This document shows positions 4,844 through 28,474 of a stretch of 64,000 bases of DNA, in pieces. The stretch covers positions 1 through 64,000 of the forward strand of contig NZ_JADKYX010000002.1 in NCBI RefSeq assembly GCF_016093545.1, in the 5' to 3' direction. The stretch's first letter is position 1, and the number at the start of each line of letters is the position of its first letter. Source of the stretch: Massilia rhizosphaerae (lineage in GTDB: Bacteria > Pseudomonadota > Gammaproteobacteria > Burkholderiales > Burkholderiaceae_D). The notes beneath the pieces were generated by a model, which was not told where the DNA came from, did no database searches, and was given only the letters and a program-made list of their open reading frames with translations. Both the position numbers and the translations under genes were made by a program.

Positions 4844-5071
4844 TAAATTCGGGGTCAGAGCACATTTTCCGCCAAATTCGGGGTCAGAGCACTTTCTGAA
4901 GAAATGTCGCTGCGGTGGCGCCCAACGTGGAATCGCCGGTCGCGCGCGGTGAACCCGGCTGCGGCAAGGCGCGCAACCCGTCATCGCATGGGGTAAGAGT
5001 ACTCGGGAGTCATTGCCACAAAAAGTGCTCTGACCCCGAATTTTGGAAAAAAAATGCTCTGACCCCGAATT
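4844..5071. repeat. Family A composite repeat element, copy 1
   Basis: Four copies of the core AAATTCGGGGTCAGAGCAC are present: 4845-4863 and 4874-4892 in direct orientation (29-bp period), and 5025-5043 and 5055-5071 in inverted orientation (30-bp period). About 130 bp of unrelated-looking sequence separates the pairs. The right end overlaps the plsY stop codon (5070-5072). The layout matches copy 2 at 28259-28474. Paired, inverted REP-like units suggest a BIME-type element mobilised by a REP-associated tyrosine transposase (RAYT). No transposase is present here. The REP/RAYT assignment is inference from layout and the GGGGTCAGAG core. Confidence 0.85.
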
Positions 5072-5714
5072 ATTTTTTGCGGGGGGTGGCTTTGGGGGCG
5101 GTCGTGGCGCCCTTCGATTTGCTGCCGATCCGCGATTCCTTGCCGGCCAGGAGATTGCTGATGTTGCTGCCGTGGCGGTACAGCAGCAAGAGGCTCATCA
5201 CGATGACGGCAAACAGTTTTTCGTCGGCACCGAACAAGAGGCCGTAGTAGAACGGTGCGAAGATCGCCGCCACCAGCGCGGCCAGCGACGAGTAACGGAA
5301 CGCGTAGGCGACGACGAGCCACGTCACCAGCGTCGCCAGGCCGAGCCAGACGTTCAGGCCCAGCAGCACACCCAGCGCCGTCGCGACGCCCTTGCCGCCG
5401 ACGAAGCGGAAGAACACGGGCCACAGGTGCCCCAGGAAGACCGCGATGGCCACCAGGGCCACGCCGCCGTCCTCGACGCCGAACCGCTCGCCGAAGTGGC
5501 TCGCCAGCCACACGGCCAGCCAGCCCTTGGCGCAGTCGCCGGCGAGCGTCGCGATGGCCGCCTTCTTGCTGCCCGAGCGCAGGACATTGGTGGCGCCCGG
5601 GTTCTTCGAGCCGTAGGTGCGCGGGTCGGCCAGGCCGAACAGGTGGCTCGCCACGACGGCGAAGGAAATCGAGCCGATCAGGTAGGCTGCGATGGTGAAC
5701 AGAATTGTGTACAT
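5070..5714 (-). CDS. plsY: Glycerol-3-phosphate acyltransferase PlsY
   Basis: This integral membrane enzyme uses acyl-phosphate (made by PlsX) to acylate glycerol-3-phosphate, the first step of phospholipid synthesis. The 214-residue sequence shows the three PlsY motifs: GSISFAVV at the N-terminus, the phosphate-binding loop [15 protein letters not shown], and [16 protein letters not shown]. It has five or so hydrophobic segments. The C-terminus has a basic tail ([17 protein letters not shown]) longer than in enterobacterial PlsY. The stop codon TAA lies inside the family A repeat, so this element sits directly at the gene end. Confidence 0.95.
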
Positions 5715-5813
5715 GAGTGTCTTTCTTAACCCCTACGGGCTTAATCCCGGCCAGGGATCTGGCGCGCAAGAATATACACCATCGGCCGAGCCCGGCGATA
5801 GTCGGACAAGCCG

Positions 5814-6305
5814 TCAATCCGCCAACGCGCAATGCACGGGCCGGGCTTGCAGCACGTCGACGAGCACGGCAGGCGCGATCCCGACGAGGAAGCCGCGCCG
5901 TCCGCCATTGATATAGATCTTGTCCAGCTGCAGGATGCTCTCCTCGACATACACCGGCATCGCCTTGCGCACGCCGAACGGCGACGTCCCGCCCACCATG
6001 TAGCCGGAATGGCGCTGGGCGACGTCCGGCTTGCACGGCTCGACGGATTTGCACGGGATGGCGCGCGCCAGGTTCTTCGTCGAGACCTTGCAATCGCCAT
6101 GCATCAGCACGATCAGCGGACGCGCCGCCTCGTCCTGCATCACGAGCGTCTTGACGACGGCGTGCTCAGCCACGCCCAGCTCGCGCGCCGACACGGCCGT
6201 GCCGCCATGTTCTTCATACTCATACGGGTGCTCCGAGAAGACGACACCATGCTTGCGCAGGAACTGTGTCGCGGGGGTTTCGGAGATATGCTCTTTCTTG
6301 GCCAT
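5814..6305 (-). CDS. ybaK: Cys-tRNA(Pro)/Cys-tRNA deacylase YbaK/EbsC
   Basis: The 163-residue protein matches the YbaK family over its full length. It has the N-terminal TPATQFLRKHGVVFSEHPYEYEEHGG, a conserved lysine in AVVKTLVMQDE, HGDCKVSTKNLARAI, and GYMVGGTSPFGVRKAMPVYVEES with the substrate loop GGTSPFG. YbaK hydrolyses Cys mischarged on tRNA(Pro) in trans, protecting translation fidelity. It is transcribed divergently from the EEP gene at 6344, with only about 38 bases between the start codons, so their promoters must overlap. Confidence 0.92.
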   Translation of the reverse strand: MAKKEHISETPATQFLRKHGVVFSEHPYEYEEHGGTAVSARELGVAEHAVVKTLVMQDEAARPLIVLMHGDCKVSTKNLARAIPCKSVEPCKPDVAQRHSGYMVGGTSPFGVRKAMPVYVEESILQLDKIYINGGRRGFLVGIAPAVLVDVLQARPVHCALAD

Positions 6306-6343
6306 GCGTGTTACGCTAAATGCAAACGGAGGAGTTGCTTATT

Positions 6344-7315
6344 ATGCAGCAAGAGATTCGCTTTGCCACCTTCAACGTGTGTAACCTCGCGCCGCCGGGC
6401 GCCCAGCTGTACGACAACCTGGAACCGAGCACCCCCGAGGAATACGAAGCGAAGATTGCCTGGACCGCGCACCAGATCGACATGCTCGGCGCCGACGTCA
6501 TCGGTTTCCAGGAAGTGTTCTCCCAGGCCGCGCTGGCCGAGGCGCTGTCGCGCACGCGGCGCTTCCGCGATGCCGTGCACGTCGGCTTCGATCCCGATCC
6601 GGACGCCGAAAAGCTCACGCCCAGCGTCGCCCTCGCCTCGCGCCTGCCGCTGGCGGACGCGCCGCGCCAACTGCCCTATTTCCCACCCGGGATCGCGATG
6701 CCGCCCGGCAACCGCGATCCGGAACGCTTCACGCGCGCCCCGCTGCACACGGCGATCCAGCTGACACCGGATCTCGTCGCCGACGTGGTGGTCGTGCACC
6801 TCAAGTCGCGCCGTCCCGACTACCGCGCGGGCGACACGGGCGACGATCCGCAGCTGTACGCGCTGGCGTCGCTGCGCTCGCTGATCCGGCGCGGCACGGA
6901 GGCGGCCGCGTTGCGCGTGCTGCTGACCGGGATCGGGCACGAGCACCACCGCCCCCGCATCGTGCTGGGCGACTTCAACGACGTGGCCGACGCGGTCACG
7001 ACCGGCATCGTGCTGGGCATCGGCGCACCGAGCGGCGACCGTCTGTATGACGCCTGCCAGTTGCAGGGCCGCCAGGACCTGTTGCGCCACGTCGGATTTT
7101 CCAATGTGCATGATGGGTATCACACGACGATCGACCATATCCTCGTGTCGGCGGAATTCAATCGCGCCTTGCCGGGCGCGCTGGGCGAAGTCGTCGACGT
7201 CGTGTACCTGAACGACCATCTCGACCTCGGGTTGCCGGAGGCGTCCGATCACGGGCAGGTGCTGGCGCGGTTGCGCTTGTTCGAGCGACCCGGGACGCCG
7301 GACGGCGACGGTTGA
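6344..7315 (+). CDS. Endonuclease/exonuclease/phosphatase (EEP) family hydrolase
   Basis: This second EEP-fold protein (323 residues) carries ATFNVCNLAPPG, IGFQEVFS (Glu ligand), LLTGIGHEHHRPRIVLGDFNDVADA (Asp/Asn) and EASDHGQVLARL (Asp-His). It differs from the gene at 3276 in having a longer insert around residues 90-190. ATG 6344 is chosen because GGAGGAG sits 9 bases upstream; an in-frame ATG at 6320 lies upstream of that site and is unlikely. There is no signal peptide. Substrate is unknown. A family B hairpin follows at 7334. Confidence 0.83.
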   Translation: MQQEIRFATFNVCNLAPPGAQLYDNLEPSTPEEYEAKIAWTAHQIDMLGADVIGFQEVFSQAALAEALSRTRRFRDAVHVGFDPDPDAEKLTPSVALASRLPLADAPRQLPYFPPGIAMPPGNRDPERFTRAPLHTAIQLTPDLVADVVVVHLKSRRPDYRAGDTGDDPQLYALASLRSLIRRGTEAAALRVLLTGIGHEHHRPRIVLGDFNDVADAVTTGIVLGIGAPSGDRLYDACQLQGRQDLLRHVGFSNVHDGYHTTIDHILVSAEFNRALPGALGEVVDVVYLNDHLDLGLPEASDHGQVLARLRLFERPGTPDGDG

Positions 7316-7333
7316 ATTTGGTCCGCATGTAAC

Positions 7334-7358
7334 GTAGGGTGGGCGCCCCGCGCCCACC
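7334..7358. repeat. Family B hairpin repeat, short form
   Basis: GTAGGGTGGGC followed by a hairpin GGTGGGC / GCCCACC, nearly identical to 191-215. It lies 18 bases after the stop codon of the EEP gene and may serve as its 3' transcript end. The remaining 220 bases to the efflux adaptor gene show no gene. They contain a GC-rich inverted repeat TCCTG/CAGGA near 7520-7535 that could lie in the adaptor mRNA leader. Confidence 0.8.
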
Positions 7359-7577
7359 ATATGCATCACCAATAACCGTTCGTCCAACCACACGCGCGTC
7401 CGTGCCGGATTTTGCGCAGTTCAGCGTCCCTTTTGCACCGCCCGTCGCATTCCGATAGCGGTTCGTCATCGTCAAACCTACCATGCTTTCATGCGCCGGG
7501 AGCTCCATCCTGCCCCGCAGGACGGAGCACTTGCGCTCCCCTTTTCCGCTCGCGCTTACCACACATAAAGAACAATC

Positions 7578-8792
7578 ATGAAGATCGAGTCCCTGCCCCT
7601 GTCCGCCGAACAGCCCACCCCGCCGCGCCGGCGCACCAAGGTCGTCGCATTGACGCTGCTCGCCGTCGCGCTGGCCGGCGCCGGCGGCTACGCGCTGACG
7701 CACCGCGCCGCGCCGCCCGCGCAGGCGGCCGCGCCGGCAAAGGCGGCAGCGGATCCGGTGCATGAGCTGTCGCCGCGCGACATCGCCCGCGTCGAGGCGC
7801 GGCCGCTGGCCGTCACGCTGCCGGTCACGGGTTCCCTGATGCCGCTGTCGCAAGCCACCGTCAAGTCGAAGGTCTCGGGCATCGTGCTGTCCACCACCGT
7901 GCAGGAAGGCATGGACGTCAAGGCCGGCCAGGTGATCGCGCAACTCGACCCCGCCGAGGCCCGCGCCCGCGTCGCCCAGCAGCGGGCCATGCTCGCCGAC
8001 GCCCAGGCGCGCCTCGCGCTGGCCCGGAAAAACCTGAGCAACAGCGCTTCGCTGCTCAAGCAGAATTTCATCGCGCAGAACGCGTACGACACGTCCGCGA
8101 ACGCCGTCGACCTGGCGCAGGCCGCCGTCGACGCCGCGCGCGCCCAGCTGGACCTGGCGCGCATCGCGCTGGCCGACACGACCATCCACGCGCCGCTGTC
8201 GGGCGTCGTCAGCAAGCGTCTCGCGCAGGCCGGCGAAAAGCTGGCGCCGGACAGCCCCGTGTTCGCGATCGTCGACCTGAAACACCTGACGCTCGACGCG
8301 CAAGTCCCCGCCTCCGACATCCCGCGCATCCGCGTCGGCCAGGACGTGCGGTTCAAGGTCGACGGCTTCGACGGCAAGACCTTCGCGGGCAAGGTCGCGC
8401 GCATCAACCCGGCCACGGAAGCGGGCTCGCGCGCCATGATCGTCTACGTGGACGTGGCGAATCCGGACGGCCTGCTGCGCGCCGGCATGTTCGCCAAGGG
8501 CACCATCGTCACCGAGAAGTCGGCCGCGCATCCGTTGCTGCCGATCGGCGCCGTGCGCCAGGATCACGGCCGCGACGTCGTCTACCGCGTCGACGCCGGC
8601 AAGGTCGTCGTGCAGCCCGTGAAGCTGGGCCTGCGCAACCCCGACGAAGGTCTCGTCGAAGCGCTCGACGGCCTGGACGCCGGCGCGACGGTGCTGGCCG
8701 TGCCGCTGGACGACGTCAAGCCGGGCAGCCGTGTCAAGCTGCCGGATGCGGCCACCGCGAACGCAGGCGCGGCCCCCGCGCGGAAAGGCTGA
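7578..8792 (+). CDS. RND efflux periplasmic adaptor (membrane fusion protein)
   Basis: The 404-residue HlyD/AcrA-type adaptor has an N-terminal membrane anchor at about residues 22-42 (VVALTLLAVALAGAGGYAL). A biotinyl-lipoyl-like half follows (ATVKSKVSGIVLSTTVQEGMDVKAGQVIAQLD), then an alpha-helical hairpin of about residues 125-190 rich in Ala, Gln and Arg. The second lipoyl half (TTIHAPLSGVVSKRLAQAGEKL) and beta-barrel/membrane-proximal domains complete it. It bridges the inner-membrane pump encoded 3 bases downstream to an outer-membrane TolC-type channel, which is not in this window. The substrate is unknown. Confidence 0.92.
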   Translation: MKIESLPLSAEQPTPPRRRTKVVALTLLAVALAGAGGYALTHRAAPPAQAAAPAKAAADPVHELSPRDIARVEARPLAVTLPVTGSLMPLSQATVKSKVSGIVLSTTVQEGMDVKAGQVIAQLDPAEARARVAQQRAMLADAQARLALARKNLSNSASLLKQNFIAQNAYDTSANAVDLAQAAVDAARAQLDLARIALADTTIHAPLSGVVSKRLAQAGEKLAPDSPVFAIVDLKHLTLDAQVPASDIPRIRVGQDVRFKVDGFDGKTFAGKVARINPATEAGSRAMIVYVDVANPDGLLRAGMFAKGTIVTEKSAAHPLLPIGAVRQDHGRDVVYRVDAGKVVVQPVKLGLRNPDEGLVEALDGLDAGATVLAVPLDDVKPGSRVKLPDAATANAGAAPARKG

Positions 8793-8795
8793 GCC

Positions 8796-11700
8796 ATGTG
8801 GATCACCCGCACCAGCATCAAGTATCCCGTCTTCGCCACGATGGTGATGGTCGGCCTGATGGTGCTCGGCCTGTTCGCGTACCGCGGCCTCGGCGTCGAG
8901 AGCATGCCGAACATCGAGATCCCGGCCGTGTTCATCGAGACGCAGTATCCGGGCGCCTCGCCCGCGCAGGTCGAGAACGACGTCACCCGCCCGATCGAGG
9001 AAGCGGCCAACACGGTCGGCGGCATCAAGACCATCCGCAGCACGTCGTGGGAAGGCCGCTCCGGGGTCGGCATCGAATTCCAGCTGACCGTCGACATGAA
9101 CCGCGCCGTGCAGGACCTGCGCGACCGCATCGGCACCGTCCGCGGCGGCTTCCCGCGTGAAGTGAAGGAACCGGTCGTCTACCGCGAGGAAGGCGAGAAC
9201 ACGCAGCCGGTGATCCTGCTGTCGCTGACGTCGCACGAGCGCAGCCTGCGCGACCTGTCGATGCTGACCGACCAGGTGATCGTCAAGCGCCTGCAGGCCG
9301 TGGCCGGCATGGGCCAGATCCGCGTCAACGGCAAGCAGGACCGCCAGGTGCTCGTCGACATCCGCCCGGACCAGCTCAAGAGCCTGGACGTGGGCATCGA
9401 CGAGGTGATGAGCGCCATCGCGGCCACCAACGCTAACCTGCCGGCCGGCCGCATCAGCCGCGGCGCGCGCGAGAACCTCGTGCGCATCGAAGGCAAGATG
9501 AAGGAGGCGGCCGACTTCAAGCGCATCGTCGTCGCCAACCGCACGGGCGGTCCGATCTACCTGGGCCAGGTGGCCGACATCTCGGACGGCGCCGCCGAGG
9601 AACAGTCGATCTCGCGCGTGAACGGCGAGCGCGCCATCACGCTGGAGATCGCGAAGATCCAGGACGCCAACACGGTCCAGGTGGGCAACGGCGTGCGCGC
9701 CGCCATCGACGCGATGAAGGACAGCCTGCCGAAGGACATCCAGTTCCGCATCCTGGACGACAAGGCGAAGAACGTGCAGGGCCAGGTCGACAACGTCAAG
9801 GACACCATCCTGGAAGGCGCGCTGCTGACGATGGTGATCGTGTTCTTCTTCCTGCACTCGTGGCGCAGCACGATCATCACGGGCCTCACCTTGCCGATCT
9901 CGGTGCTGGCCAGCTTCATCGCGATGAAGTGGTTCGGCTTCACGCTGAACTTCCTCACCCTGATGGCGCTGTCGCTGTGCATCGGCCTGTTGATCGACGA
10001 CGCCATCGTCGTGCGCGAAAACATCGTGCGCCACCTCGGCATGGGCAAGAACCACGTGCGCGCCGCGGAAGATGGCACGGGCGAGATCGGCCTCGCCGTG
10101 ATGGCGACGACGTTCGCCATCGTCGCCGTGTTCGTGCCGATCGCGTTCATGAAGGGCATCATCGGCCGCTTCTTCCTGCAGTTCGGGATCACGGTCGCGG
10201 TGGCCGTGCTGGTGTCGCTGTTCGTCAGCTTCACGCTCGACCCGATGCTGTCGTCCGTGTGGCCCGATCCGGTCAAGGACCGCTTCAAGTACCTGCCCTG
10301 GCTGGGCCGCCTGATGGCGCGCATCGAGCACGGCATCGAGTGGCTGCACCACGTGTACGCGAAGGTGCTGGCGCTGGCGCTGGGCTGGCGCAAATCGACC
10401 CTGCTGCTCGCGGTCGTGCTGTTCGTGGGCAGCCTGATGCTGGTGCCGAAGATCGGCGGCGAATTCGTGCCGCAGGTCGACGACGGCTTCATCCAGCTGC
10501 GCCTGAAGACGCCGATCGGCTCCAGCCTCGACTACTCGGACGCCAAGCTGCGCCAGGCCGAGGCCGCGCTGGCCGAGTTCAAGGAAATCGAAAGCGTCTC
10601 GACCATCATCGGCTCGTGGGAAGGCCGCAACTATTCGCAGGTGAACCTCAAGCTGACGGACGTGCACAAGACGCACCGCCGCTCGCAGCAGGAAATGGAG
10701 AAGGTCATCCGCGCGCGCCTGGAAAAGATCGCCGGCGTATCGCTGACGGTCGGCCAGCGCCCCATCTTCATCGCCATCCTCGGCACCGACGAGGCCAAGC
10801 TGGACGCCGTCGCCCACACGCTGATGGACAAGATGCGCAAGATCCGCGGCGTGGCCGACATCGAGTACAGCCAGGAAGGCGCGAACCCGGCGACCATCGT
10901 GAAGATCAACCACGAGCTGGCGTCCGACCTGGGCCTGACCGTGCAGCAGATCGGCACGGCGCTGCGTCCGTTCGTCGCCGGCGACCAGACCAACCGCTGG
11001 CTCGCGCCGGACGGCCAGAACTACGAAGTCAACGTGCAGCTGCCGAAATCGGGCCGCGAAAAGGTGGCCGACCTGGCCGACCTGTCGGTGGCGTCGAGCA
11101 AGCTCGATGCGGCCGGCAACCCGATCATGGTGCCGCTGCGCCAGGTCGTGCAATTCATCCCGTCGACGAGCCCGCAGATGCTCAAGCGCCAGGCCCTGCA
11201 GCGCCGCGTCGCGATCTACGCCGGCCTCGAAGGCCGTCCGCTCGGCGACGTGATGGGCGACGTGAACAAGGCGATGAAGTCGATCGCCCTGCCGGACGGC
11301 GTGCGCTTCGACGTCTCCGGCGACGCCCAGCAGATGGACGAAACGATGGCCGGCTTCGGCGTCGCACTGGGCATCGCCGTGATCTTCATCTACCTCGTGC
11401 TGGCGTCGCAGTTCGGCAGCTTCCTGCAGCCGATCGCGATCATGGTGTCGCTGCCGCTGTCGCTGATCGGCGTGCTCGTCGCGCTGCTCGTCACGAAGAC
11501 GACGCTGAACATCTTCTCGGTGATCGGCATCGTGATGCTGATGGGCCTCGTGACGAAGAACGCGATCCTGCTGGTGGACTTCGCCAACCACGGCCAGCGC
11601 GCGGGACGCAACCAGTTCGATGCGCTGATGGAAGCGGGCCAGGTGCGCCTGCGCCCGATCCTGATGACGACGCTGGCCATGATCTTCGGCATGTTGCCGA

Positions 11701-11906
11701 TGGCGATCGGCATGGGCGAAGGCGGCGAAACGCAGGCGCCGATGGGCCGCGCCGTGATCGGCGGCGTGATCACGTCGACCTTGCTCACGCTGGTCGTCGT
11801 GCCGGTGGCGTACACCTATCTCGACAGCCTGGGCAAGCGGGTGGCCGCGTGGTTCAAGCGCGGGCGCGAGGAAGAGGTGGCGGAGGGCAACGAGCGGGCG
11901 GCGTGA
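8796..11906 (+). CDS. RND-family efflux pump, inner-membrane permease
   Basis: The 1036-residue protein has the standard RND plan: TM1 near residue 13-30, a large periplasmic porter domain, a block of TM helices around residues 335-500, a second porter domain, and terminal TM helices from about 855 to 1010. Conserved features include the GASPAQVENDVTRPIEEA porter segment and the proton-relay helix LSLCIGLLIDDAIVVRENIVRHL with its two aspartates. The repeat GIVMLMGLVTKNAILLVDFAN is found in the second half. It is of the HAE-1/MexF-MdtB type and probably exports hydrophobic toxicants. It is cotranscribed with the adaptor. Confidence 0.94.
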   Translation: MWITRTSIKYPVFATMVMVGLMVLGLFAYRGLGVESMPNIEIPAVFIETQYPGASPAQVENDVTRPIEEAANTVGGIKTIRSTSWEGRSGVGIEFQLTVDMNRAVQDLRDRIGTVRGGFPREVKEPVVYREEGENTQPVILLSLTSHERSLRDLSMLTDQVIVKRLQAVAGMGQIRVNGKQDRQVLVDIRPDQLKSLDVGIDEVMSAIAATNANLPAGRISRGARENLVRIEGKMKEAADFKRIVVANRTGGPIYLGQVADISDGAAEEQSISRVNGERAITLEIAKIQDANTVQVGNGVRAAIDAMKDSLPKDIQFRILDDKAKNVQGQVDNVKDTILEGALLTMVIVFFFLHSWRSTIITGLTLPISVLASFIAMKWFGFTLNFLTLMALSLCIGLLIDDAIVVRENIVRHLGMGKNHVRAAEDGTGEIGLAVMATTFAIVAVFVPIAFMKGIIGRFFLQFGITVAVAVLVSLFVSFTLDPMLSSVWPDPVKDRFKYLPWLGRLMARIEHGIEWLHHVYAKVLALALGWRKSTLLLAVVLFVGSLMLVPKIGGEFVPQVDDGFIQLRLKTPIGSSLDYSDAKLRQAEAALAEFKEIESVSTIIGSWEGRNYSQVNLKLTDVHKTHRRSQQEMEKVIRARLEKIAGVSLTVGQRPIFIAILGTDEAKLDAVAHTLMDKMRKIRGVADIEYSQEGANPATIVKINHELASDLGLTVQQIGTALRPFVAGDQTNRWLAPDGQNYEVNVQLPKSGREKVADLADLSVASSKLDAAGNPIMVPLRQVVQFIPSTSPQMLKRQALQRRVAIYAGLEGRPLGDVMGDVNKAMKSIALPDGVRFDVSGDAQQMDETMAGFGVALGIAVIFIYLVLASQFGSFLQPIAIMVSLPLSLIGVLVALLVTKTTLNIFSVIGIVMLMGLVTKNAILLVDFANHGQRAGRNQFDALMEAGQVRLRPILMTTLAMIFGMLPMAIGMGEGGETQAPMGRAVIGGVITSTLLTLVVVPVAYTYLDSLGKRVAAWFKRGREEEVAEGNERAA

Positions 11907-11912
11907 CGCGGC

Positions 11913-12150
11913 TCATCCCGGAACGAGCGCCTGTTGCACCCGATGGCTGTCGACGTACTGTTCCATGCGCACGATCTTGCCATCCTTTAAGTGGTACAGG
12001 TGCGCGAAGCTCGCTGTCATGGGCTTGCCGGTCTTGCGGTACGTGCCCCGATCTGCTCGAGCCCCACATAGGTGCCCGCGTACGGGAATCCGGCCGCCTC
12101 CGTCCAGTGCGCGTCCGGTGCCAGCGCGGCCTGCAGGTGGCGGGAAACCC
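11913..12150 (-). pseudogene. Remnant of a SnoaL-like / NTF2-fold protein gene
   Basis: Two frames on the minus strand encode pieces of one SnoaL-like (ketosteroid isomerase-related) protein. The upstream piece reads LAPDAHWTEAAGFPYAGTYV. The downstream piece, shifted by one base, reads GTYRKTGKPMTASFAHLYHL and ends EQYVDSHRVQQALVPG at the TGA 11913-11915. In the family a stretch of roughly 35 residues normally lies between these motifs, so there is an internal deletion plus frameshift near 12045-12060. No start codon remains, and the residual 5' end runs into the stop codon of the DsbA-MBL fusion gene. It is not expected to make a working protein. Confidence 0.8.
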
Positions 12151-12152
12151 GT

Positions 12153-13592: not shown

Positions 13593-13638
13593 GGATGGGA
13601 GCCCCGGATGGATAGGATGAGGGGCATAATAGGGCGCA

Positions 13639-14682: not shown

Positions 14683-14738
14683 AGCTGTTCGGCCTTGCTT
14701 GAGGTACGAATGAAACGGCGCCGGGCGCCGACAAGCGA

Positions 14739-14918: not shown

Positions 14919-14992
14919 GCTCACCTCGAGACTGTCGTTGGAAAGGTCGTACCGGTCCATTATGGACCAGTCATCCCGCATCGTCTTGAGAA

Positions 14993-17906: not shown

Positions 17907-17926
17907 CAGGCGGCCGGTAGTAAAAG

Positions 17927-19936: not shown

Positions 19937-19983
19937 ACCGTGATTTACAATAGGCCAAAAGAATAGAACACCCGGGAGACACC

Positions 19984-20577: not shown

Positions 20578-20690
20578 CACCCGCGCACGGCTGGCCGCGC
20601 GTCCTGTGCCGCGCGGGGTTCGCTTGTAAAATCAACCTGAACATGGAGTGGTCGAACTCACCACGTCGAAAAATTCTTTAGGGAACGCAG

Positions 20691-21071
20691 ATGAGCGAGA
20701 AGACGATAGCCGACAAAATGTTCTTGAGGACCGCGAAATCGATGCTGATCCTGAACGGGAACGTCCACCCCGGCATGGTGTCGCAGATGCCGGCCAACCT
20801 GATCAGGAACGACGCGGACAAGGTGGACGTCGTGCTGCTGTTCGCGATGAACCGCAAGGAACTCGAACAATTCTTCCCCATCGCCAAGGAACGGCTCGGC
20901 GACAAAGGCTCGCTGTGGGTCGCCTACCTGAAGCAGACCGCCTCCAAGGCCACCGACATCAACCGCGACTCGATCAATGCCTATGCCAAGGAAAACGGCA
21001 TCACGGGCGTCGCCATGATCTCGATCGACGGCGACTGGTCGGCGCTGCGCATGAAGCGCATCGAACTCTGA
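20691..21071 (+). CDS. Conserved hypothetical protein, DUF3052-like
   Basis: The 126-residue cytoplasmic protein has an alternating beta-alpha pattern: ADKMFLRTAKSMLILNG, ADKVDVVLLFAMNRKELEQFF, KGSLWVAYLKQ, GITGVAMISIDGDWSALRMKRI. The order and the closing S-x-D-x-x-W-S-A-L-R-x-K motif resemble DUF3052-family proteins, whose function is not established. It has its own leader of 113 bases after dctR, with a TAAAAT box near 20630, so it is probably an independent gene. It ends 3 bases before the stop codon of the convergent queG. Confidence 0.7.
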   Translation: MSEKTIADKMFLRTAKSMLILNGNVHPGMVSQMPANLIRNDADKVDVVLLFAMNRKELEQFFPIAKERLGDKGSLWVAYLKQTASKATDINRDSINAYAKENGITGVAMISIDGDWSALRMKRIEL

Positions 21072-21074
21072 CGC

Positions 21075-22181
21075 TCACACCGCGGCGCCGTGGCGCGCCA
21101 GCGCCCACGCGACGTGCTCGCGCACCAGCGCCGACGGGTGGTCCGCGCGGGCGCGCAAGGCGGCGATGATGGCATCGGCGGCATCGGCGTCGCCGCCGGC
21201 ATTGCCCAGGCCCACGGCCAGGTTGCGCAGCCACCGCTCGTGGCCGATGCGGCGGATCGGGCTGCCTTCCAGGCGGCGGTTGAATTCCTCCTCGCTCCAG
21301 CCGAACAGCTCCACCAGTCCCGCCGCGCCCAGGCCGTTGCGCTCGTCGAAATCCGGCAGGCTCGAGCGCTGCGCGAACTTGTTCCACGGGCAGACCAGCT
21401 GGCAATCGTCGCAGCCGTAGATGCGGTTGCCGATCAGCGGCCGCAAGTCTTCCGGGATCGCGCCCTTGAGCTCGATGGTCAGGTAGGAAATGCAGCGGCG
21501 CGCATCCAGCCGGCCCGGGCCGAGGATGGCGCTCGTCGGGCATGCGTCGATGCAGGCGCTGCACTGGCCGCAGTGGGCGCCACCGGGCGCGTCGACGGGC
21601 AGCGGCAGGTCGACGAGGATCTCGCCGATGAAGAACGTGGAGCCGGCCGTGCGGCTCAGCAGCAAGGTGTGCTTGCCGCGCCAGCCGAGGCCCGCCTTCT
21701 GCGCCAGCGGCAGCTCCATCACGGGCGCGGAATCCGTGAACACGCGGTAGCCGTACTCGCCGACGGCAGCCCGGATGCGCTCCGCGAGCTGCTGCAGGCG
21801 GTTGCGCAACACCTTGTGGTAGTCGCGGCCGCGCGCATAGATCGACACGACGGCCGCCTGCGGATCTTCCTGGCGCAGGCGTTCGCGCGCGCGCCAGTCG
21901 GCCGGGGTCGCCATCGGCAGGTAGTCCATGCGCGCGCTGATCACGCGCACCGTGCCCGGCACCAGCTCGGCCGGGCGGGCGCGCTTCATGCCGTGGCTTG
22001 CCATATAATCCATGTCGCCGTGATGGCCCGCGTCCAGCCAGGCCCGCAGGCCCGCTTCCTGGTCGGCGAGATCGATGTCGGCGATGCGCACGTCGGCAAA
22101 GCCCAGCTCCGCGCCCCATGCCTTGATGGCCTGGGCGAGTGCGGGGAGATCGGGCGTGGCGGGCGACTGGGTGGCGGACAT
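21075..22181 (-). CDS. queG: Epoxyqueuosine reductase QueG
   Basis: The enzyme reduces epoxyqueuosine to queuosine in tRNA, the last step of queuosine synthesis. It is a cobalamin- and iron-sulfur-dependent protein of 368 residues. Visible features include the N-terminal ADVRIADIDL / HGDMDYMASH region, FTDSAPVMELPLAQKAGLGW with the catalytic Asp, and two 4Fe-4S motifs: CGQCSACIDACPTSAI and CDDCQLVCPWNKF. A C-terminal HEAT-like tail closes it. ATG 22181 gives the family length. It is divergent from tsaE, 30 bases apart, an arrangement I recall as common in betaproteobacteria. Confidence 0.95.
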   Translation of the reverse strand: MSATQSPATPDLPALAQAIKAWGAELGFADVRIADIDLADQEAGLRAWLDAGHHGDMDYMASHGMKRARPAELVPGTVRVISARMDYLPMATPADWRARERLRQEDPQAAVVSIYARGRDYHKVLRNRLQQLAERIRAAVGEYGYRVFTDSAPVMELPLAQKAGLGWRGKHTLLLSRTAGSTFFIGEILVDLPLPVDAPGGAHCGQCSACIDACPTSAILGPGRLDARRCISYLTIELKGAIPEDLRPLIGNRIYGCDDCQLVCPWNKFAQRSSLPDFDERNGLGAAGLVELFGWSEEEFNRRLEGSPIRRIGHERWLRNLAVGLGNAGGDADAADAIIAALRARADHPSALVREHVAWALARHGAAV

Positions 22182-22211
22182 GGCGGACCTACAAACCTCA
22201 TATTTTATTCG

Positions 22212-22700
22212 ATGCAGCAGCAAGTGAATGCCTATCTTCCCGACGAATCGGCCACGCAAGCGTTGGGCGCCGCCCTCGCGCGCGCGCTGCGCCCGGGCCT
22301 CGTCATGTATCTCCACGGCGACCTCGGCGCCGGCAAGACGGCGCTCACGCGCGCCCTGCTGCACGCGGCCGGCCACAAGGGCGCCGTCAAGAGCCCGACC
22401 TATACGCTGTCCGAGCCATACCGCATCGACCTGGACGGCCGGCCCGTCAACGTGATCCACTACGATCTGTACCGCATGTCCAGCCCGGAGGAATTCCTCG
22501 ACGCGGGCTTCCGGGAAGATTTCGACGGAAACAACATTTGCATCGTGGAATGGCCGGAAAAAGGCGAGCCGGTGTTGCCGCCGCCCGACGTTAAAGTGTT
22601 GCTTAAGGTCAGCGGACGCGGGCGTGAGGTAGAATTGCAGGCGTTGTCCGACCTGGGCCTGCTATGCCTCGAACGCCTGCACTACCCCCCGACACCCTGA
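22212..22700 (+). CDS. tsaE: tRNA threonylcarbamoyladenosine biosynthesis ATPase TsaE
   Basis: ATPase partner of TsaD/TsaB in making t6A at position 37 of ANN-decoding tRNAs. The 162-residue protein has Walker A GDLGAGKTALTRALL, VKSPTYTLSEPY, HYDLYRM and the Walker B-like IVEWPEKGE. The ATG 22212 gives the standard N-terminus (MQQQVNAYLPDESATQALGAAL). The last 37 bases overlap the start of amiC in another frame, a coupling commonly seen for this gene pair. Confidence 0.95.
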   Translation: MQQQVNAYLPDESATQALGAALARALRPGLVMYLHGDLGAGKTALTRALLHAAGHKGAVKSPTYTLSEPYRIDLDGRPVNVIHYDLYRMSSPEEFLDAGFREDFDGNNICIVEWPEKGEPVLPPPDVKVLLKVSGRGREVELQALSDLGLLCLERLHYPPTP

Positions 22701-24085
22701 TTCCCGGCTCCTTGACGCGACGTACGATCCTGAAGGCCGGCGGCACGCTGCTGCTGTCCGTCATCGCGCCACTGCCGGCATCCGCCGCCCAGATCCTCGC
22801 CGTGCGCGTATGGCCGGCCGACGACTACACCCGCGTCACGCTGGAAAACGACGGCGAACTCAAGACGACGCACTTCATGGTGCCGGACCCGCCGCGCCTC
22901 GTCGTCGACATCGAAGGCCTGGCGCTGAACGAGACGCTGAAAAGCCTCGTCGCGAAGATCGAATCGAACGACCCGTACATCAGGCAGGTGCGCGTGGGCC
23001 AAAACCGGCCGAACGTCGTGCGCCTCGTGTTCGACCTGAAGGAAGAGGTCAAGCCGCAAGTGTTTACGCTGGCGCCCGTCGCCGGCTACCACCACCGCCT
23101 GATCTTCGACCTGTACCCGGTCAAGGAAGTGGACCCGTTGGCCGCCATGATCGCCAAGGAAAACTGGACCACGGAGGCGGCTCCCGTCACCCCGACCCCG
23201 GCCGGGCAACCGGGCGCGCCGGCCGTCGAGCAGGCCGGCCCGGACGCCATCGCCAGGCTGGAAGCGGACGCGGCCCGCGCCGCGGCTTCCCCCGTGCAAC
23301 CGCAGCCGGCGACGCCGCAGCCGGCGACGCCGCAGCCCGCCGCCCATACCAAGGTGACGCCGGGCCAGAAAGTGATGCGCATGGTGACCATCGCCCTCGA
23401 CCCCGGCCACGGCGGCGAAGACCCGGGCGCCACGGGCGCGACGGGCGTGCACGAGAAAGACATCGTGCTGTCGGTGGCGAAGCGCCTGAAGGCCAAGCTG
23501 GAAGGCTTGCCGAACACGCGCGTGATGCTGACGCGCGACGCCGACTTCTTCGTCCCCCTCGGCCAGCGCGTGGAAAAGGCGCGCAAGGTGCAAGCCGACC
23601 TGTTCGTGTCGATCCACGCCGACGCGTTCGTCGAGCGGACGGCGCGCGGCTCGTCCGTCTTCGTGCTGTCGGAAAAAGGCGCCAGCTCGAGCGCGGCGCG
23701 CTGGCTCGCGAACGACCAGAACAAGGCCGACCTGATCGGCGGCGTGAATCTCGACAACCACGACCGGCAGCTCGCGAGCGTGCTGATCGACCTGTCGCAG
23801 ACGGCCCAGATCAACGACAGCATGAAACTCGGCAAGGCCGTGCTGACGGAGATCGGCGGCATCAACCGCCTGCACCGCGGTGTCGTCGAACAGGCCGGCT
23901 TCGCCGTGCTCAAGGCGCCGGACATCCCGTCGATCCTCGTCGAGACGGCGTTCATCTCGAACCCGGAGGAAGAAGCGCGGCTCAAGGACGATGCTTACCA
24001 GAACGAACTGGCCGACGCGATCACGAAAGGCATCAAACGCTACTTCGCGTACAATCCGCCGCTGGCGAAGAGCCGCATGACTTAA
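22664..24085 (+). CDS. amiC: N-acetylmuramoyl-L-alanine amidase AmiC
   Basis: The periplasmic septal amidase cleaves the amide bond between MurNAc and the peptide to separate daughter cells. The 473-residue protein has a Tat signal (LTRRTILKAGGTLLLSVIAPLPASA), an AMIN domain at about residues 40-150 for septum targeting, and a Pro/Ala/Thr linker with PQPAT repeats near 205-225. An Amidase_3 domain follows with Zn ligands in DPGHGGEDPGA, ETAFISNPEEE and the His in FVSIHADA. The Tat signal agrees with known Tat export of AmiC. Confidence 0.95.
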   Translation: MPRTPALPPDTLIPGSLTRRTILKAGGTLLLSVIAPLPASAAQILAVRVWPADDYTRVTLENDGELKTTHFMVPDPPRLVVDIEGLALNETLKSLVAKIESNDPYIRQVRVGQNRPNVVRLVFDLKEEVKPQVFTLAPVAGYHHRLIFDLYPVKEVDPLAAMIAKENWTTEAAPVTPTPAGQPGAPAVEQAGPDAIARLEADAARAAASPVQPQPATPQPATPQPAAHTKVTPGQKVMRMVTIALDPGHGGEDPGATGATGVHEKDIVLSVAKRLKAKLEGLPNTRVMLTRDADFFVPLGQRVEKARKVQADLFVSIHADAFVERTARGSSVFVLSEKGASSSAARWLANDQNKADLIGGVNLDNHDRQLASVLIDLSQTAQINDSMKLGKAVLTEIGGINRLHRGVVEQAGFAVLKAPDIPSILVETAFISNPEEEARLKDDAYQNELADAITKGIKRYFAYNPPLAKSRMT

Positions 24086-24121
24086 CGGACGCCCGCGGGC
24101 GTCCCCCTGAGGAGGATTCTC

Positions 24122-24940
24122 GTGAACGTAACGACCACTCAATTCGGGCAGCTGCCCGCACTGCAACTTCGCGCGCCGGACGGCGCCGAGGCGACCATCA
24201 CTCTGTACGGCGCCCACCTCGTGTCGTGGAAGGCCGTGACCACGGCCGAGGCGCCGGGCCAGGAACGGCTGTTCCTCAGCAGCCTGTCGGCGCTGGACGG
24301 CCGCAAGGCGATCCGCGGCGGCGTCCCCGTCATCTTTCCCCAGTTCGCCGAACGCGGCAACGGCATGCGCCACGGCTTCGCGCGCGTGTCGACCTGGCGC
24401 GTCGTCGACCAGGGCGAAGCGGACGGCGCCGCGTTCGCCGTGCTGGCGCTGAACCAGGCCGACCTGGCCCCCGACGTGGCGGCCGCGTGGCCGTACGCCT
24501 TCGAGCTGGTGCTGCGGGTAGCGGTGCGCGGCGCGCAACTGGACATGGCGCTCGACGTGCGCAACACGGGCGCACAACCGCTTCCCTTCGCGGCCGCGCT
24601 CCACACCTACCACCTCGTCGACGACCTGGACGCCGTGCGCATCGACGGCGTGCAGACGGACACGCTCGCCATCACCGACAAGCTCGACCAGGTGTTCGAA
24701 CGCATCGGCGGCACAATCACGTTCGACACGGGCGCGGACAAGGTGACGCTGGAGCAGACGGGCTTCAACGACGCCGTCGTGTGGAATCCGGGCGCGGCCG
24801 ACGCGGCGGCGCTGCCCGACATGGAAGACGAGGAATACCGCCGCTTCGTCTGCATCGAACCGGCCCTGCTGGAACCGCAGCAACTGGAGCCGGGCGGCAC
24901 CTGGCGCGGGACGTACCGGGCCGTGGTGCAAGCGGCATGA
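24122..24940 (+). CDS. D-hexose-6-phosphate mutarotase (YeaD-like aldose-1-epimerase family)
   Basis: The 272-residue galactose-mutarotase-fold protein should interconvert the alpha and beta anomers of hexose-6-phosphates. Motifs: LYGAHLVSWK, IRGGVPVIFPQFAERG, MRHGFARVSTWRV, ALHTYHLVDDLDAVRIDG and a closing VCIEPALLEPQQLEPGG with the catalytic Glu. Start is GTG with AGGAGGA 7 bases upstream. A strong hairpin follows the gene. It sits between amiC and the mutL region and has no obvious sugar-metabolism neighbour. Confidence 0.9.
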   Translation: MNVTTTQFGQLPALQLRAPDGAEATITLYGAHLVSWKAVTTAEAPGQERLFLSSLSALDGRKAIRGGVPVIFPQFAERGNGMRHGFARVSTWRVVDQGEADGAAFAVLALNQADLAPDVAAAWPYAFELVLRVAVRGAQLDMALDVRNTGAQPLPFAAALHTYHLVDDLDAVRIDGVQTDTLAITDKLDQVFERIGGTITFDTGADKVTLEQTGFNDAVVWNPGAADAAALPDMEDEEYRRFVCIEPALLEPQQLEPGGTWRGTYRAVVQAA

Positions 24941-24945
24941 CGACA

Positions 24946-24968
24946 AAACGCCGGCATTGCCGGCGTTT
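24946..24968. terminator. Hairpin terminator after the mutarotase gene
   Basis: AAACGCCGGC / GCCGGCGTTT forms a perfect 10-bp stem with a 3-base loop, 5 bases after the stop codon. The A-run on the left and short T-run on the right would let it act in both directions. Confidence 0.75.
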
Positions 24969-25045
24969 CAATTTGTAGCAAAAAAGAACGGCAACCTTCC
25001 CGGGCCGGCCTAGACTATAGTCAGGACAGCACACGGGGTGACGCG

Positions 25046-25291
25046 ATGGACACCAACACAACCGGCCGGCTGAAACGCCTGGCACTCGCGCTAGCGGCGG
25101 GCGGCGCCTTGTCGGGCTGCGCCGTCTACGCGCCGCCTTACGGGGCCTACGACGGCCCCTACTATCCTTACGGCTATGGCCCGGCCTATGTCGGGCCGCC
25201 CGTTTCGCTCGACTTCAGCTACCACGATTACGAATACCGCGGCGGGCGCGGGCATGGGCGCGGATGGGGCCACCGCCGCGGCTGGCATTGA
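25046..25291 (+). CDS. Small Gly/Tyr/Pro-rich lipoprotein
   Basis: The 81-residue protein has a lipoprotein signal ending LSGC (Cys about 25). Its mature part is dominated by Tyr, Pro and Gly (VYAPPYGAYDGPYYPYGYGP) and ends in a Gly/Arg/His-rich tail (RGGRGHGRGWGHRRGWH). Such low-complexity surface lipoproteins are frequent and poorly understood; the tail could bind metals or polyanions. It has its own short leader after the terminator of the previous gene and converges with the carbonic anhydrase gene, 12 bases away. Confidence 0.72.
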   Translation: MDTNTTGRLKRLALALAAGGALSGCAVYAPPYGAYDGPYYPYGYGPAYVGPPVSLDFSYHDYEYRGGRGHGRGWGHRRGWH

Positions 25292-25303
25292 CCATACGAG
25301 CGC

Positions 25304-26374
25304 TCAGTTCGACTCCTTGATCATGCGCCCCGCCGTCGGCTGCACCGGGCGCGCATTGAGCGGATACAGGCGCGAGAACAATGCCATCTGCGCCGGCGAC
25401 GCCTGCATCGGCTGCTTGAACACCATCCACAGCACGCCTTCCGTGCACGGCGGTTCCGTCAGCGACCCCATGTAGGTGAAGTAGTCGCGGCGCTCCGGCA
25501 GCGCGTCGGACGGGTCGATCACGATCGACGGCGACACGACGTCATGTTTTTCCAGCGGCAAATTATCCCAAATGGTCTGCATGAGCCGGTGCGGCTGGCC
25601 GCGCTCGAGCAGCACGGCGATGATCGCGACCTTGCCCTCGACACTCCGGTGCACGAGGTGGATCACCATTTCCGTGCCCCTGCCGTTGATCTTTTCCTCG
25701 GACGGGCGATGGAAATGGAATTCCTGCAGCTCGTAGACCGTGTTGCCGACCGTAATAAAATTGCCGCTCCCCACCATCACCCTGATCGTGTGGCCGTCGT
25801 TGACTTCGCTGAACGACGACGGGTGATAGTCGAAACTGATCTGCTCCAGATTGACCTTGATGCCGTCGCGCAAGTCGATGGGCGACTGGCGGTTGCCGGT
25901 GCCGCATTTGGCCCAGTCGACATTGATCTTCGACCAGTTGGCCGGGCCCGTCTCGCCCTCGTACGACCACACGGTGCCGTGCTTGGGCGCGGCGGCGCGG
26001 GCCGCTGCCGCGGCGGCGGCGGCCTCTTCCTGGCGGCGCTTGGCCTCGGCCAGTTTGCGCGCGCGCGCGGCGGCCGCGGCGCGGGCCTGCTGGCGCTCGC
26101 GCAGGGCGGCCAGGCGCTGGGCGATCTTGGCCGACAATGCGACCTCGGCATCTTCCTCGCTGGCTTCCGGGGCGGCGGCCGGGGCGGCCGCCGGTTCGGC
26201 CTTCCGGACGACCGGCTCGGGTTTCTTGGCCGCGGGCGCCAAAGGCACCATGGCCGATGCCGGTCTGGAGACGGAAGCCGCCAATTTGGCTGCCGCGGCG
26301 GCCTCGGGATCGTTCGCGGCGCCGGCGCTCAAGGCGACGCAGCTGCACACGAACAAGGCGATCAGGTTACGCAT
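25304..26374 (-). CDS. Alpha-class carbonic anhydrase with long Ala-rich coiled-coil extension
   Basis: Exported alpha-carbonic anhydrase that interconverts CO2 and bicarbonate in the periplasm. A signal peptide (residues 1-20) is followed by a Pro/Ala segment and a charged helix at about 75-128 (IAQRLAALRERQQARAAAAA). The CA domain covers about 132-350: WSYEGETGPANWSKI, zinc ligands His220 and His222 in QEFHFHRPSEE, His239 in VIHLVH, and the substrate loop SLTEPPCTEGVLW. The roughly 110-residue helical extension is unusual for bacterial alpha-CAs of about 250 residues. It might anchor or oligomerise the enzyme. Confidence 0.9.
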   Translation of the reverse strand: MRNLIALFVCSCVALSAGAANDPEAAAAAKLAASVSRPASAMVPLAPAAKKPEPVVRKAEPAAAPAAAPEASEEDAEVALSAKIAQRLAALRERQQARAAAAARARKLAEAKRRQEEAAAAAAAARAAAPKHGTVWSYEGETGPANWSKINVDWAKCGTGNRQSPIDLRDGIKVNLEQISFDYHPSSFSEVNDGHTIRVMVGSGNFITVGNTVYELQEFHFHRPSEEKINGRGTEMVIHLVHRSVEGKVAIIAVLLERGQPHRLMQTIWDNLPLEKHDVVSPSIVIDPSDALPERRDYFTYMGSLTEPPCTEGVLWMVFKQPMQASPAQMALFSRLYPLNARPVQPTAGRMIKESN

Positions 26375-26472
26375 GGGAATCCAGTACTGTTGCTCTCCCC
26401 TGCCTTATCGGCGTGACCGACAGTAAACTTGAGGCTAGGGAACAATTCCATGCGTCAAGACCCGTAAACGCA

Positions 26473-26497
26473 CAGCGCGCCGTCCTGCGGCGCGCTG
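26473..26497 (-). terminator. Perfect hairpin after the dedA gene, probable transcript end
   Basis: CAGCGCGCCG / CGGCGCGCTG, a 10-bp perfect GC-rich stem with a 5-base loop, lies 22 bases beyond the stop of the minus-strand dedA gene. The U-run is weak, so it may act as a 3' stabiliser rather than a classical terminator. Confidence 0.5.
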
Positions 26498-26518
26498 CGA
26501 ATGCGGCAATCCGTCCGC

Positions 26519-27163
26519 TCAACGGCTCATCATGCGCCGGCCCACCTTGTACAGGCCGCCCAGCGCCAGCGGCACGACGGCTGCCCCGACACCGACCAGC
26601 ACGATCACCGTCAGGTGGTCGCGGACCACGGGGATATTGCCGAAGAAGTAACCGCCGGTCACCAGGGTGACGACCCATGCCGCGGCGCCGGTGACGTTGT
26701 ACATCTGGAAGCGCGCATGGGTCATGTCCGAGACGCCCGCGACGAACGGCGCGAACGTGCGCACGACGGGCACGAAACGGGCGAGGATGATAGTCTTGCC
26801 GCCGTGGTGTTCGAAGAATTCGTGGGTGCGCCGCAACGCGTCCTTGTTCAGCCAGCGGTAGTCGTGCGTGAAGACGCGGTGCCCGATCGCCCCGCCGATG
26901 TAATAGTTGAGGGTATTGCCCGTCACCGCCGCCACGATCAACAAGGTCGTCAGCACCGCATAACTCATCTCGCCGGTGGCGCAGAAGGCGCCTGCGATGA
27001 ACAGGAGCGTGTCACCAGGAAAGAAGAACAGAACCACGAGACCGGTTTCGCAGAATACGATGGCGAACAGCACGGCATAGACATAAACCCCGTATTGCGC
27101 CAGCAGTGTGCCCAGGGTTTTGTCGACATGAAGAATCATGCCGATGAGTTGCATCAGATCCAT
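26519..27163 (-). CDS. DedA family (SNARE-associated/VTT domain) membrane protein
   Basis: The 214-residue inner-membrane protein has the DedA plan: an N-terminal re-entrant segment, F-F-P-G-D-T-L-L-F-I-A-G (residues about 47-60), the signature G-N-x-L-N-Y-Y-I-G, and RFVPVVRTFAPFVAGVSDM with the essential arginines. Four or five hydrophobic stretches are seen. DedA proteins are thought to flip or carry lipid carriers and maintain proton motive force. ATG 27163 gives the family N-terminus. It is divergent from the cyclophilin gene, with a 180-base AT-rich spacer. Confidence 0.92.
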   Translation of the reverse strand: MDLMQLIGMILHVDKTLGTLLAQYGVYVYAVLFAIVFCETGLVVLFFFPGDTLLFIAGAFCATGEMSYAVLTTLLIVAAVTGNTLNYYIGGAIGHRVFTHDYRWLNKDALRRTHEFFEHHGGKTIILARFVPVVRTFAPFVAGVSDMTHARFQMYNVTGAAAWVVTLVTGGYFFGNIPVVRDHLTVIVLVGVGAAVVPLALGGLYKVGRRMMSR

Positions 27164-27343
27164 AATTTTCCTAAACGGTAGCGCCGAATCATACCATCAG
27201 TCCGCCCTCGGAAATCGGTCCCAGGTCATGCCGGCGGCGATTTTTTCTCGATTGGTAAATGGTTTCATTTTCATTATTTCCCATATTACAATCGTCGTCA
27301 CACCCACAATGACCAGGCCGCCACAAGCGGCCAAGGAGACGAC

Positions 27344-28261
27344 GTGAAGCCCTACTGCACCCACCGGCGCACGAGCCTCGTTGCCGCCTGCGCGCTGCTC
27401 GCGGCCGGTGCCGCCGCTGCTCGCGAATTGCCGCCCAAGCCCAGCGTCGCCGACATCGTCAAGGCGTCGAAACCGTCCGACTGGCGCCCCCTCGAACCGG
27501 ACAACACGCTGTACATGGAGTTACCGTCCGGACGCGTCGTCATCGAACTGGCCCCTACTTTCGCGCCGAACCACGTCAGGAACATCAAGGCTCTCGTGCG
27601 CGCCCATTATTTCGACGGCCTGGCCGTCGTGCGCGTGCAGGACAACTGGGTCGTGCAATGGGGCGACCCGAACGAGGACAACGACAAGGCCAGGCCCGTC
27701 ACGGGCGCGCAGAAGACGCTGAAGGCCGAATTCACGGTGCCCATCAAGAATGACACGCACTTCACGCGCCAGCCGGATGTCGACGGCTACGCGCGGGAGG
27801 TCGGCCACTCGAACGGCTTTCCCGTCGGACGCGATCCCAGGACGGGCGAGACGTGGCTGGCGCATTGCTACGGCATGGTCGGCGTGGGCCGCGACATCGA
27901 TGCCGACAGCGGCGGCGGGACGTCGCTGTACGCCGTGATCGGCCCGGCCCGCCACCTCGACCGCAACATCACGGTGGTCGGCCGCGTGATTTCCGGCATG
28001 CCGCAACTAGCCGCCCTGCCGCGCGGCCCGGCGCCGATGGGCTTCTACGACAAGCCGGAGATGAACGTGCCGATCGCATCGATCAAAGTGGCGGCCGACG
28101 TCCCGCCGGACCAGCGCAGCCACTTCGAAGTCATGCGCACGGACGGCGCCACCTACCGGGCCGTCCTCGACGCCCAGCGCAACCGCGGCGGCCCGTGGAC
28201 CAAGGTGGCGGCCGGCCACCTCGACCTGTGCGCCGCGCCAATTCCCGTACGGGAACAATAA
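27344..28261 (+). CDS. Exported cyclophilin-type peptidyl-prolyl cis-trans isomerase
   Basis: The 305-residue protein has a signal peptide (CALLAAGAAAARE) and a cyclophilin core: GRVVIELAPTFAPNHVRNIKALVRAHYFDGLAVVRVQDNWVVQWGDP, GMVGVGRD, TSLYAVIGPARHLDRNITVVGRVISGM. The segment between the first and second core motifs is expanded by about 40 residues compared with PpiA, and the catalytic Arg region reads VVRVQDNW rather than FHRV, so activity may be weak. Start GTG has AGGAG upstream. The stop codon TAA merges with the first unit of the family A repeat copy 2. Confidence 0.85.
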   Translation: MKPYCTHRRTSLVAACALLAAGAAAARELPPKPSVADIVKASKPSDWRPLEPDNTLYMELPSGRVVIELAPTFAPNHVRNIKALVRAHYFDGLAVVRVQDNWVVQWGDPNEDNDKARPVTGAQKTLKAEFTVPIKNDTHFTRQPDVDGYAREVGHSNGFPVGRDPRTGETWLAHCYGMVGVGRDIDADSGGGTSLYAVIGPARHLDRNITVVGRVISGMPQLAALPRGPAPMGFYDKPEMNVPIASIKVAADVPPDQRSHFEVMRTDGATYRAVLDAQRNRGGPWTKVAAGHLDLCAAPIPVREQ

Positions 28262-28474
28262 ATTCGGGGTCAGAGCACTTTTTTCCTTAAATTTGGGGTC
28301 AGAGCACTTTTTCAGGAAATTGCACAGACAGGGAATACGCCGATCAACGATGGCGTTGTAGCGCGCAAATCGCCAACGAACCGGTGGCGGGCGGCGTCAT
28401 CCGCCATCGCGGGAAATTGCTCAAAAATGTGCTCTGACCCCGAATTTCTCGAAATTTGTGCTCTGACCCCGAAT
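28259..28474. repeat. Family A composite repeat element, copy 2
   Basis: Same design as 4844-5071: direct units at 28260-28278 and 28289-28307 (29-bp period; the second has TTTGGGG for TTCGGGG), inverted units at 28429-28447 and 28458-28474 (29-bp period), and about 120 bp between. The left end begins at the stop codon of the cyclophilin gene. The right end stops 44 bases before mutL, so the mutL promoter must lie within or just after it. Confidence 0.85.

Follow-up and report, generated by a model that had tools for sequence, protein, structure and literature searches.

In Pseudomonas fluorescens SBW25, REPINs (doublets of repetitive extragenic palindromic, or REP, sequences) are described as short and extragenic, with ends that are inverted and conserved, a centre that is less so, and an accompanying REP-associated tyrosine transposase (RAYT) whose gene is flanked by the same repeats; their commonest spacings are 71 and 110 bp (PMC3116915). 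By definition each REP has a GT[AG]G foot and contains a palindrome (PMC6006769), and REPIN/RAYT systems have been viewed as hairpins of single-stranded DNA together with the factors that process them (PMC3116915, PMC6006769, PMC8266576). PMC8049555 sees little evidence of a benefit that such systems could give their hosts. The REPs of the E. coli bacterial interspersed mosaic elements of type 2 (BIME-2) are intergenic targets of gyrase, which wraps about 130 bp; its motif spans 130 bp and has a GC content periodic at 10.75 bp (PMC6379681). Lac repressor acts on paired sites that it joins in a loop; in vivo the optima lie near 133 and 144 bp and the helical repeat is 11 bp (PMC8501960).

A 64,000-bp stretch of Massilia rhizosphaerae (assembly GCF_016093545.1, contig NZ_JADKYX010000002.1, positions 1 to 64,000; here called the window) carries two elements, at 4845-5072 and 28260-28476, each made up of a direct pair of cores, a centre and an inverted pair. 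They belong to a RAYT-linked, REPIN-like family with non-canonical cores that is dispersed over the 7.0-Mb genome (G000; G004, G012, G015 and similar handles denote the relatives compared). The family resembles the SBW25 REPINs in its short extragenic copies, inverted conserved ends, less conserved centre and RAYT flanked by the same repeats. It differs from them in having a tandem pair of cores at each end, in a core that contains neither GT[AG]G nor a hairpin of its own, in a centre with phased A/T content and a length quantised into six or more classes, and in the placement of its copies at gene 3′ ends. Core and architecture set it apart from BIME-2, the likeness being one of size and A/T rhythm, and from the Lac loops it is distinguished as a set of dispersed repeats at gene 3′ ends with a putative binder. 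Probably, though far from certainly, both arms are held by a protein on the same side of the double helix, the centre being looped or wrapped. The quantised length of the centre, the A/T phase locked to the arms, the residence at orthologous 3′ gene ends and the loss of copies in a relative with another RAYT allele are new; the first two had been missed in a preliminary description of the window elements. Among the matches listed in the open-licence literature, no report of helical phasing in REP/RAYT systems was found, no title concerned Massilia genome repeats of the REP kind, and the matches for GGGGTCAG-type 10-mers were by title unrelated to bacterial repeats.

Architecture and length phasing of the family

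The 15-mer core TTCGGGGTCAGAGCA has 228 exact copies in G000, which include 95 tandem pairs; the reversed control has none. Elements were parsed from the first 100 of the 228 core places and from all 95 tandem pairs, a set that is a lower bound and does not reach copies on later contigs that lack a tandem pair of exact cores. From 61 sources, 62 elements were obtained. Sixty of them are short, with both arms paired, and share one plan, in which a tandem pair of cores and an inverted pair enclose a centre; this bears out the earlier view of a defined architecture rather than scattered repeats. The remaining two are an unpaired element (L005) and the RAYT copy (L031, d = 818, where d is the core-to-core distance between the two inner cores of an element); the parser returned no element from L067, L095, L119 and L134.

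The two cores of an arm are spaced by 29 (76 arms), 19 (35), 28 (7), 30 (1) or 33 bp (1) in the 120 arms of the 60 elements. A 29-bp period had been read from the window copies and is indeed found in both arms of both, but it is not universal, and the common alternative of 19 bp differs from it by about one turn. No element has 19 bp in both arms, an absence whose probability, given how often 19 occurs, is about 0.005. A polarity of the two ends is no more than suggested, because neither end can be classed in 13 of the 34 asymmetric elements. GT[AG]G is absent from the core AAATTCGGGGTCAGAGCAC and no fold or hairpin is predicted within a single core, and the family is thus non-canonical as REP. 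In predicted folds of the 60 elements a mean of 0.82 of the left-arm bases pair with the right arm, making a REPIN-type hairpin possible. A miniature inverted-repeat element of a DDE transposon was rejected as a candidate, target-site duplication being no more frequent than expected by chance (junction repeats averaging 0.72 against 0.92 for mispaired flanks).

The elements lie at the 3′ ends of genes, as judged from the gene calls of a simple script. Twenty-four of the 62 are between convergent genes, 35 between co-directional genes (32 of these nearer the 3′ end) and 2 between divergent genes, with 1 left unassigned. Of 84 three-prime junctions, 30 are located -3 to 4 bp from a called stop codon.

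Once the 28 bp or so beside each arm are set aside, the centres are unrelated, with 8 weak pair matches at E ≤ 0.01 among the 60; the earlier claim of unrelated centres therefore holds for most of their extent, a short conserved box next to each arm being the part that it does not cover. Their length is quantised. Values of d cluster near 119, 129, 140, 151, 161 and 173, with a periodicity of R = 0.71 at 11.05 bp where the highest of 2000 smoothed resamples reaches 0.41, and the 33 elements outside d 136-145 alone give R = 0.63 at the same phase. Nine other genomes contributed 76 elements, for which R = 0.57 at 11.0 bp and the phase is 8.0 mod 11 (8.0-8.2 in G000); this set keeps 76 of 80 spans, 24 of them adjusted by eye where the inner core was inexact, and its G057 elements are a lower bound. 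Phasing persists among the copies that survive in G018, G022, G026, G051 and G057 (n = 33, R = 0.76).

The composition of the centre follows the arms as well. A/T content oscillates at centre positions 33-62 and is locked to the arms, none of 3000 nulls being as high in G000 (n = 60) or in G015 and G023 together (n = 52); in these nulls the composition order of each centre was kept up to rotation and the phase randomised. The best-fit period is 9.8-10.3 bp, or 10.3-10.4 bp for the two sides of G000 (about three cycles), and the peaks, at about 41, 51 and 62, coincide whichever arm is taken as origin and across three length classes. Bacterial genomes are known to carry an overall bias of about 11 bp (PMC4132750). 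A hairpin in the mid-centre was considered and rejected, since this part folds no more than the control (mean z -0.16 versus -0.20); for whole centres including the boxes the mean fold z is -0.66, with 15% below -2.

The RAYT, its alleles and copies at orthologous sites

None of the four Y1_Tnp matches of the genome falls inside the window, as had been noted for transposases in general, but the best of them, a 233-aa protein encoded at C12:269237-269935, is on the same contig about 205 kb past the window and is framed by the cores of the family: at this locus (L031) the left-hand core pair is spaced by 29 bp and the right-hand one by 19 bp. The protein scores 50.5 bits against Pfam Y1_Tnp (cut-off 23) and remains below the cut-off of the REP transposase family NCBIfam NF047646 (66.2 versus 80 bits), a score on which it would be either a divergent member or another subclass. 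PMC6006769 reports no REP-like sequences for RAYT subclasses 2.1 and 2.3 and gives roles for the HuH and Tyr motifs of RAYTs. Residues H60, H62 and Y120 are invariant in 22 aligned relatives; we take them to be the residues of these motifs. A PDB search with the sequence gave no match, and the AlphaFold model (mean predicted local distance difference test score, pLDDT, 87.4) has as its top PDB match 4er8, a REP-associated tyrosine transposase (E 8e-7, TM 0.75 by target). The nearest named relatives are records of Telluria and Massilia. The family is regarded as RAYT-linked and REPIN-like because its RAYT is framed by the same arms and has 4er8 as best PDB match. This much of the earlier proposal of REP-like, RAYT-driven mobilisation stands; the core is not a canonical REP, and that the elements have moved is suggested by their presence and absence between species.

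One syntenic RAYT site holds two alleles. Between G000 and each of G017, G022 and G027 the flanks are 87-91% identical and the RAYT gene 67-70%, and the allele of these three genomes is framed by ACCGGGGTCAGAGCC cores, as is the same type in G018. Plain ACCGGGGTCAGAGCC doublets of the same genus have a related core, their own RAYT allele at the same syntenic site, and copies at the site of element 2 in five relatives; they differ from the present family in their single cores, in having many exact doublets spaced 39 or 53 bp, and in lacking a long phased centre. Exact tandem pairs of G000-type cores number 95 in G000, 58 in G023, 49 in G015 and 37 in G004, as against 8 in G018, 4 in G022 and none in G017 and G027, which have the other allele. 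G052 has the G000 allele and merely 4 such pairs. No RAYT with G000-type cores was seen in G057 (19 tandem pairs) or G051 (7), a look that did not take in the flanks of a second RAYT homologue (62%) of G057. Seventeen G015 loci could be followed in G018, all with both flanks and on anchorable contigs. The element is kept at 6 of them; 4 are empty, a plain doublet stands at 2 and another inverted repeat at 2 more, 2 have a plain-type fragment with an insert of about 1.5 kb, and 1 has a left arm with an insertion. The 6 retained loci were chosen via exact cores and the other 11 come from windows placed by synteny. Many copies are thus lost in a genome with a different RAYT allele, which suggests that their persistence may depend on the cognate RAYT.

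Orthologous pairs were selected by 300-bp flanks (28 G000-G015, 18 G000-G023 and 14 G015-G023), and a G000 orthologue was found for 28 of the 33 parsed G015 elements. Many copies are, to judge from the sequences compared, old residents at orthologous sites. Flank identity in the kept pairs is 90-94%. In the G000-G015 comparison, identity amounts to 96.6% for inner cores, 97.2% for outer cores, 61% for arm spacers and 64.5% for mid-centres, the last being saturated in view of the 63.1% for a shuffled partner. Mid-centres of G015 and G023 still align (69.5% versus 62.3%), and their alignments reveal vertical descent, in one case with a net 10-bp change.

Length is kept better than in flanking stretches over this divergence. 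With a spurious item at L052 (d = 61) excluded here and from the flanking comparison, 31 of the 47 non-redundant pairs differ by at most 3 bp, and in the remaining 16 the changes are biased towards multiples of about 11 (p about 0.02, or 0.045 when restricted to the 14 that are smaller than 30 bp). Centres stay within 3 bp in 28 of 46 cases compared with 14 of 37 for the flanking intergenic stretches of the same pairs, a comparison that pools G015 and G023 pairs, which are not independent; changes in the flanking stretches are unphased. In 13 of 53 orthologous arms, the spacing is 29 bp in G015 and 19 bp in G000, about one turn less.

Explanations for a centre in register

The elements at gene 3′ ends can be viewed as a pair of inverted binding arms with two cores each around a non-coding centre. 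They would act as double-stranded DNA, with a putative protein binding the arms and keeping them on a fixed face of the helix while the centre is bent into a short loop or wrap. The centre would then be free in sequence, in helical register in length (about 11 bp per turn) and provided with A/T-rich steps about once per turn, because the arms are held on a fixed face and the centre is bent. Four features jointly agree with double-stranded DNA that is held at its two arms and looped or wrapped: the quantised length, the phasing of composition to either arm, the 10-bp steps within the arms and the freedom of the sequence. A single-stranded loop, whether of DNA or of RNA, lacks a helical register. 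Loops of 133-144 bp in E. coli have 11 bp per turn in the living cell (PMC8501960). Candidates for the arm-binding protein are the RAYT, gyrase or another protein.

The register could instead reflect mobility, if a transposase had to synapse the arms on double-stranded DNA so that copies of phased length alone would move and residents would be functionless. In agreement with this, the arms also frame a RAYT, species differ in whether a given site is occupied, and copies are far fewer in G018, which has another RAYT allele. We nevertheless consider it unlikely, since cores and register are retained in residents whose centres have diverged as far as saturation, phased copies persist in G018 and G022, where no RAYT with G000-type cores was seen, and relatives of the RAYT are single-strand enzymes (PMC8266576). 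A special form of the looped or wrapped complex would have gyrase wrap the centre, with the arms positioning it, and so relieve positive supercoils at gene 3′ ends. The placement of the elements suits such a role, and their centres are of like size and like A/T rhythm to the E. coli gyrase motif, the two features on which the comparison is based (PMC6379681). That motif is symmetric about the cleavage site, whereas the phase here follows the arms, so that one added turn moves the midpoint by half a turn; nothing here links gyrase to the RAYT, and gyrase sites are a rather improbable account.

Ordinary selfish REPINs, moved as single-stranded hairpins with an unconstrained loop for a centre and with length classes as relics of a few founders, would account for inverted ends able to pair, for a RAYT with the same flanking repeats and for preferred spacings like those of REPINs elsewhere (PMC3116915). 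They would hardly account for six or more length classes at even steps among unrelated centres, for an A/T phase locked to both arms, or for lengths better kept than the flanking spacers over saturating divergence, and are accordingly very improbable. The slimmest chance is given to an RNA-level device, such as a terminator or a hairpin stabilising mRNA at gene 3′ ends. It is favoured by the junctions close to stop codons and by four relatives that have a GC-rich stem and an A-run in the interval occupied by element 1; the 11-bp step and phased A/T content would be unexplained in a loop, and the mid-centre has no extra fold.

Several observations weigh against the looped or wrapped complex itself. 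The phasing of length is looser in G004 (n = 22, R 0.45) and not significant in G012 (n = 13, R 0.38), and the A/T oscillation is not significant in G018 and G057 together (n = 18, p = 0.058). The A/T period (9.8-10.4 bp over 30 positions) is slightly below the length period, and several orthologous length changes are off whole turns (16, 18, -25). The two arms can pair with each other like a REPIN hairpin, and RAYTs studied in vitro act on single strands (PMC8266576). The arm-binding protein is putative, and a register set by transposition and a functional site predict much the same pattern.

Spacer length and composition that follow the turn of double-stranded DNA, and are kept at the same sites across species, point to a looped or wrapped complex and may reflect selection on resident copies. 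A wider proposal, possible but somewhat doubtful, is that the RAYT-repeat system maintains, at gene 3′ ends, dozens of double-stranded sites that are protein-wrapped or looped and whose upkeep rests on helical register and not on centre sequence, with a benefit for the host and with the RAYT or gyrase as the protein; the RAYT might mobilise or bind the elements. If true, these sites would be the host benefit that has been sought for REPIN/RAYT systems.

The window elements and related variants

Both window copies have the design first described for them, paired direct and paired inverted cores. All eight cores are present at their expected places (8 matches with at most 3 mismatches; 100 shuffles give a mean of 0.01 and a largest value of 1). 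The features are as follows.

4845..4863, plus strand: element 1, left outer core; exact match
4874..4892, plus strand: element 1, left inner core, 29 bp on; exact match
4892..5025, no strand: element 1, centre of 134 bp, d = 151; about 18-28 bp per end form the conserved box and the remainder is unrelated to other copies
5025..5043, minus strand: element 1, right inner core; exact match
5054..5072, minus strand: element 1, right outer core; 2 mismatches, 2-bp overlap with the 3′ end of the called minus-strand gene at right
28260..28278, plus strand: element 2, left outer core; start overlapped by the TAA stop of the called upstream gene
28289..28307, plus strand: element 2, left inner core; 1 mismatch
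28307..28429, no strand: element 2, centre of 123 bp, d = 140, the commonest class
28429..28447, minus strand: element 2, right inner core; exact match
28458..28476, minus strand: element 2, right outer core; 1 mismatch, next gene start at 28518

The two centres (134 and 123 bp, between the inner 17-base cores) are unrelated save for the short box beside each arm. The gene starting at 28518 beside element 2 is presumably mutL.

Both loci were compared in 30 loci each, out of 62 genomes. Element 1 is present in G023, G004 and G012 and missing from G015, G018, G026 and G052, which carry in its interval the GC-rich stem and A-run mentioned above (L283, L284, L287, L288), like an intrinsic terminator. 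At the element 2 locus, G015, G017, G018, G022 and G023 have a plain doublet of CCGGGGTCAG-type cores and G057 an element of G000 type. In G012 (L271) a G000-type element is nested in the loop of a plain CCGGGGTCAG-type doublet, a nesting that gives the order of insertion.

The related core ACCGGGGTCAGAGCCCG of G017, G018 and G022 forms many plain inverted doublets with a start-to-start spacing of 39 or 53 bp. An element of G015 (L115) has on either side a copy of a terminator-like stretch of roughly 60 bp, of which G018 (L336) possesses one copy, and in one G023 element (L131, G023:C13:45967-46073) the left arm is enlarged to several direct cores with irregular spacing. The syntenic RAYT loci are L140, L149, L152, L153 and L155 in G000, G027, G018, G022 and G017. 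Some RAYTs of the G000 allele type end in a GRPR/GRPK tail (L141, L143, L144, L147), which we take to be like an AT-hook; it is not seen in G000, G004 and G012, and the ACCGG RAYT alleles are shorter and without it. A second RAYT type, about 40-45% identical to that of G000 (L160, L161, L163, L165, L169), has AATTAGGGTCAGAGTCGAATT-type cores in tandem copies 43 bp apart beside the gene.

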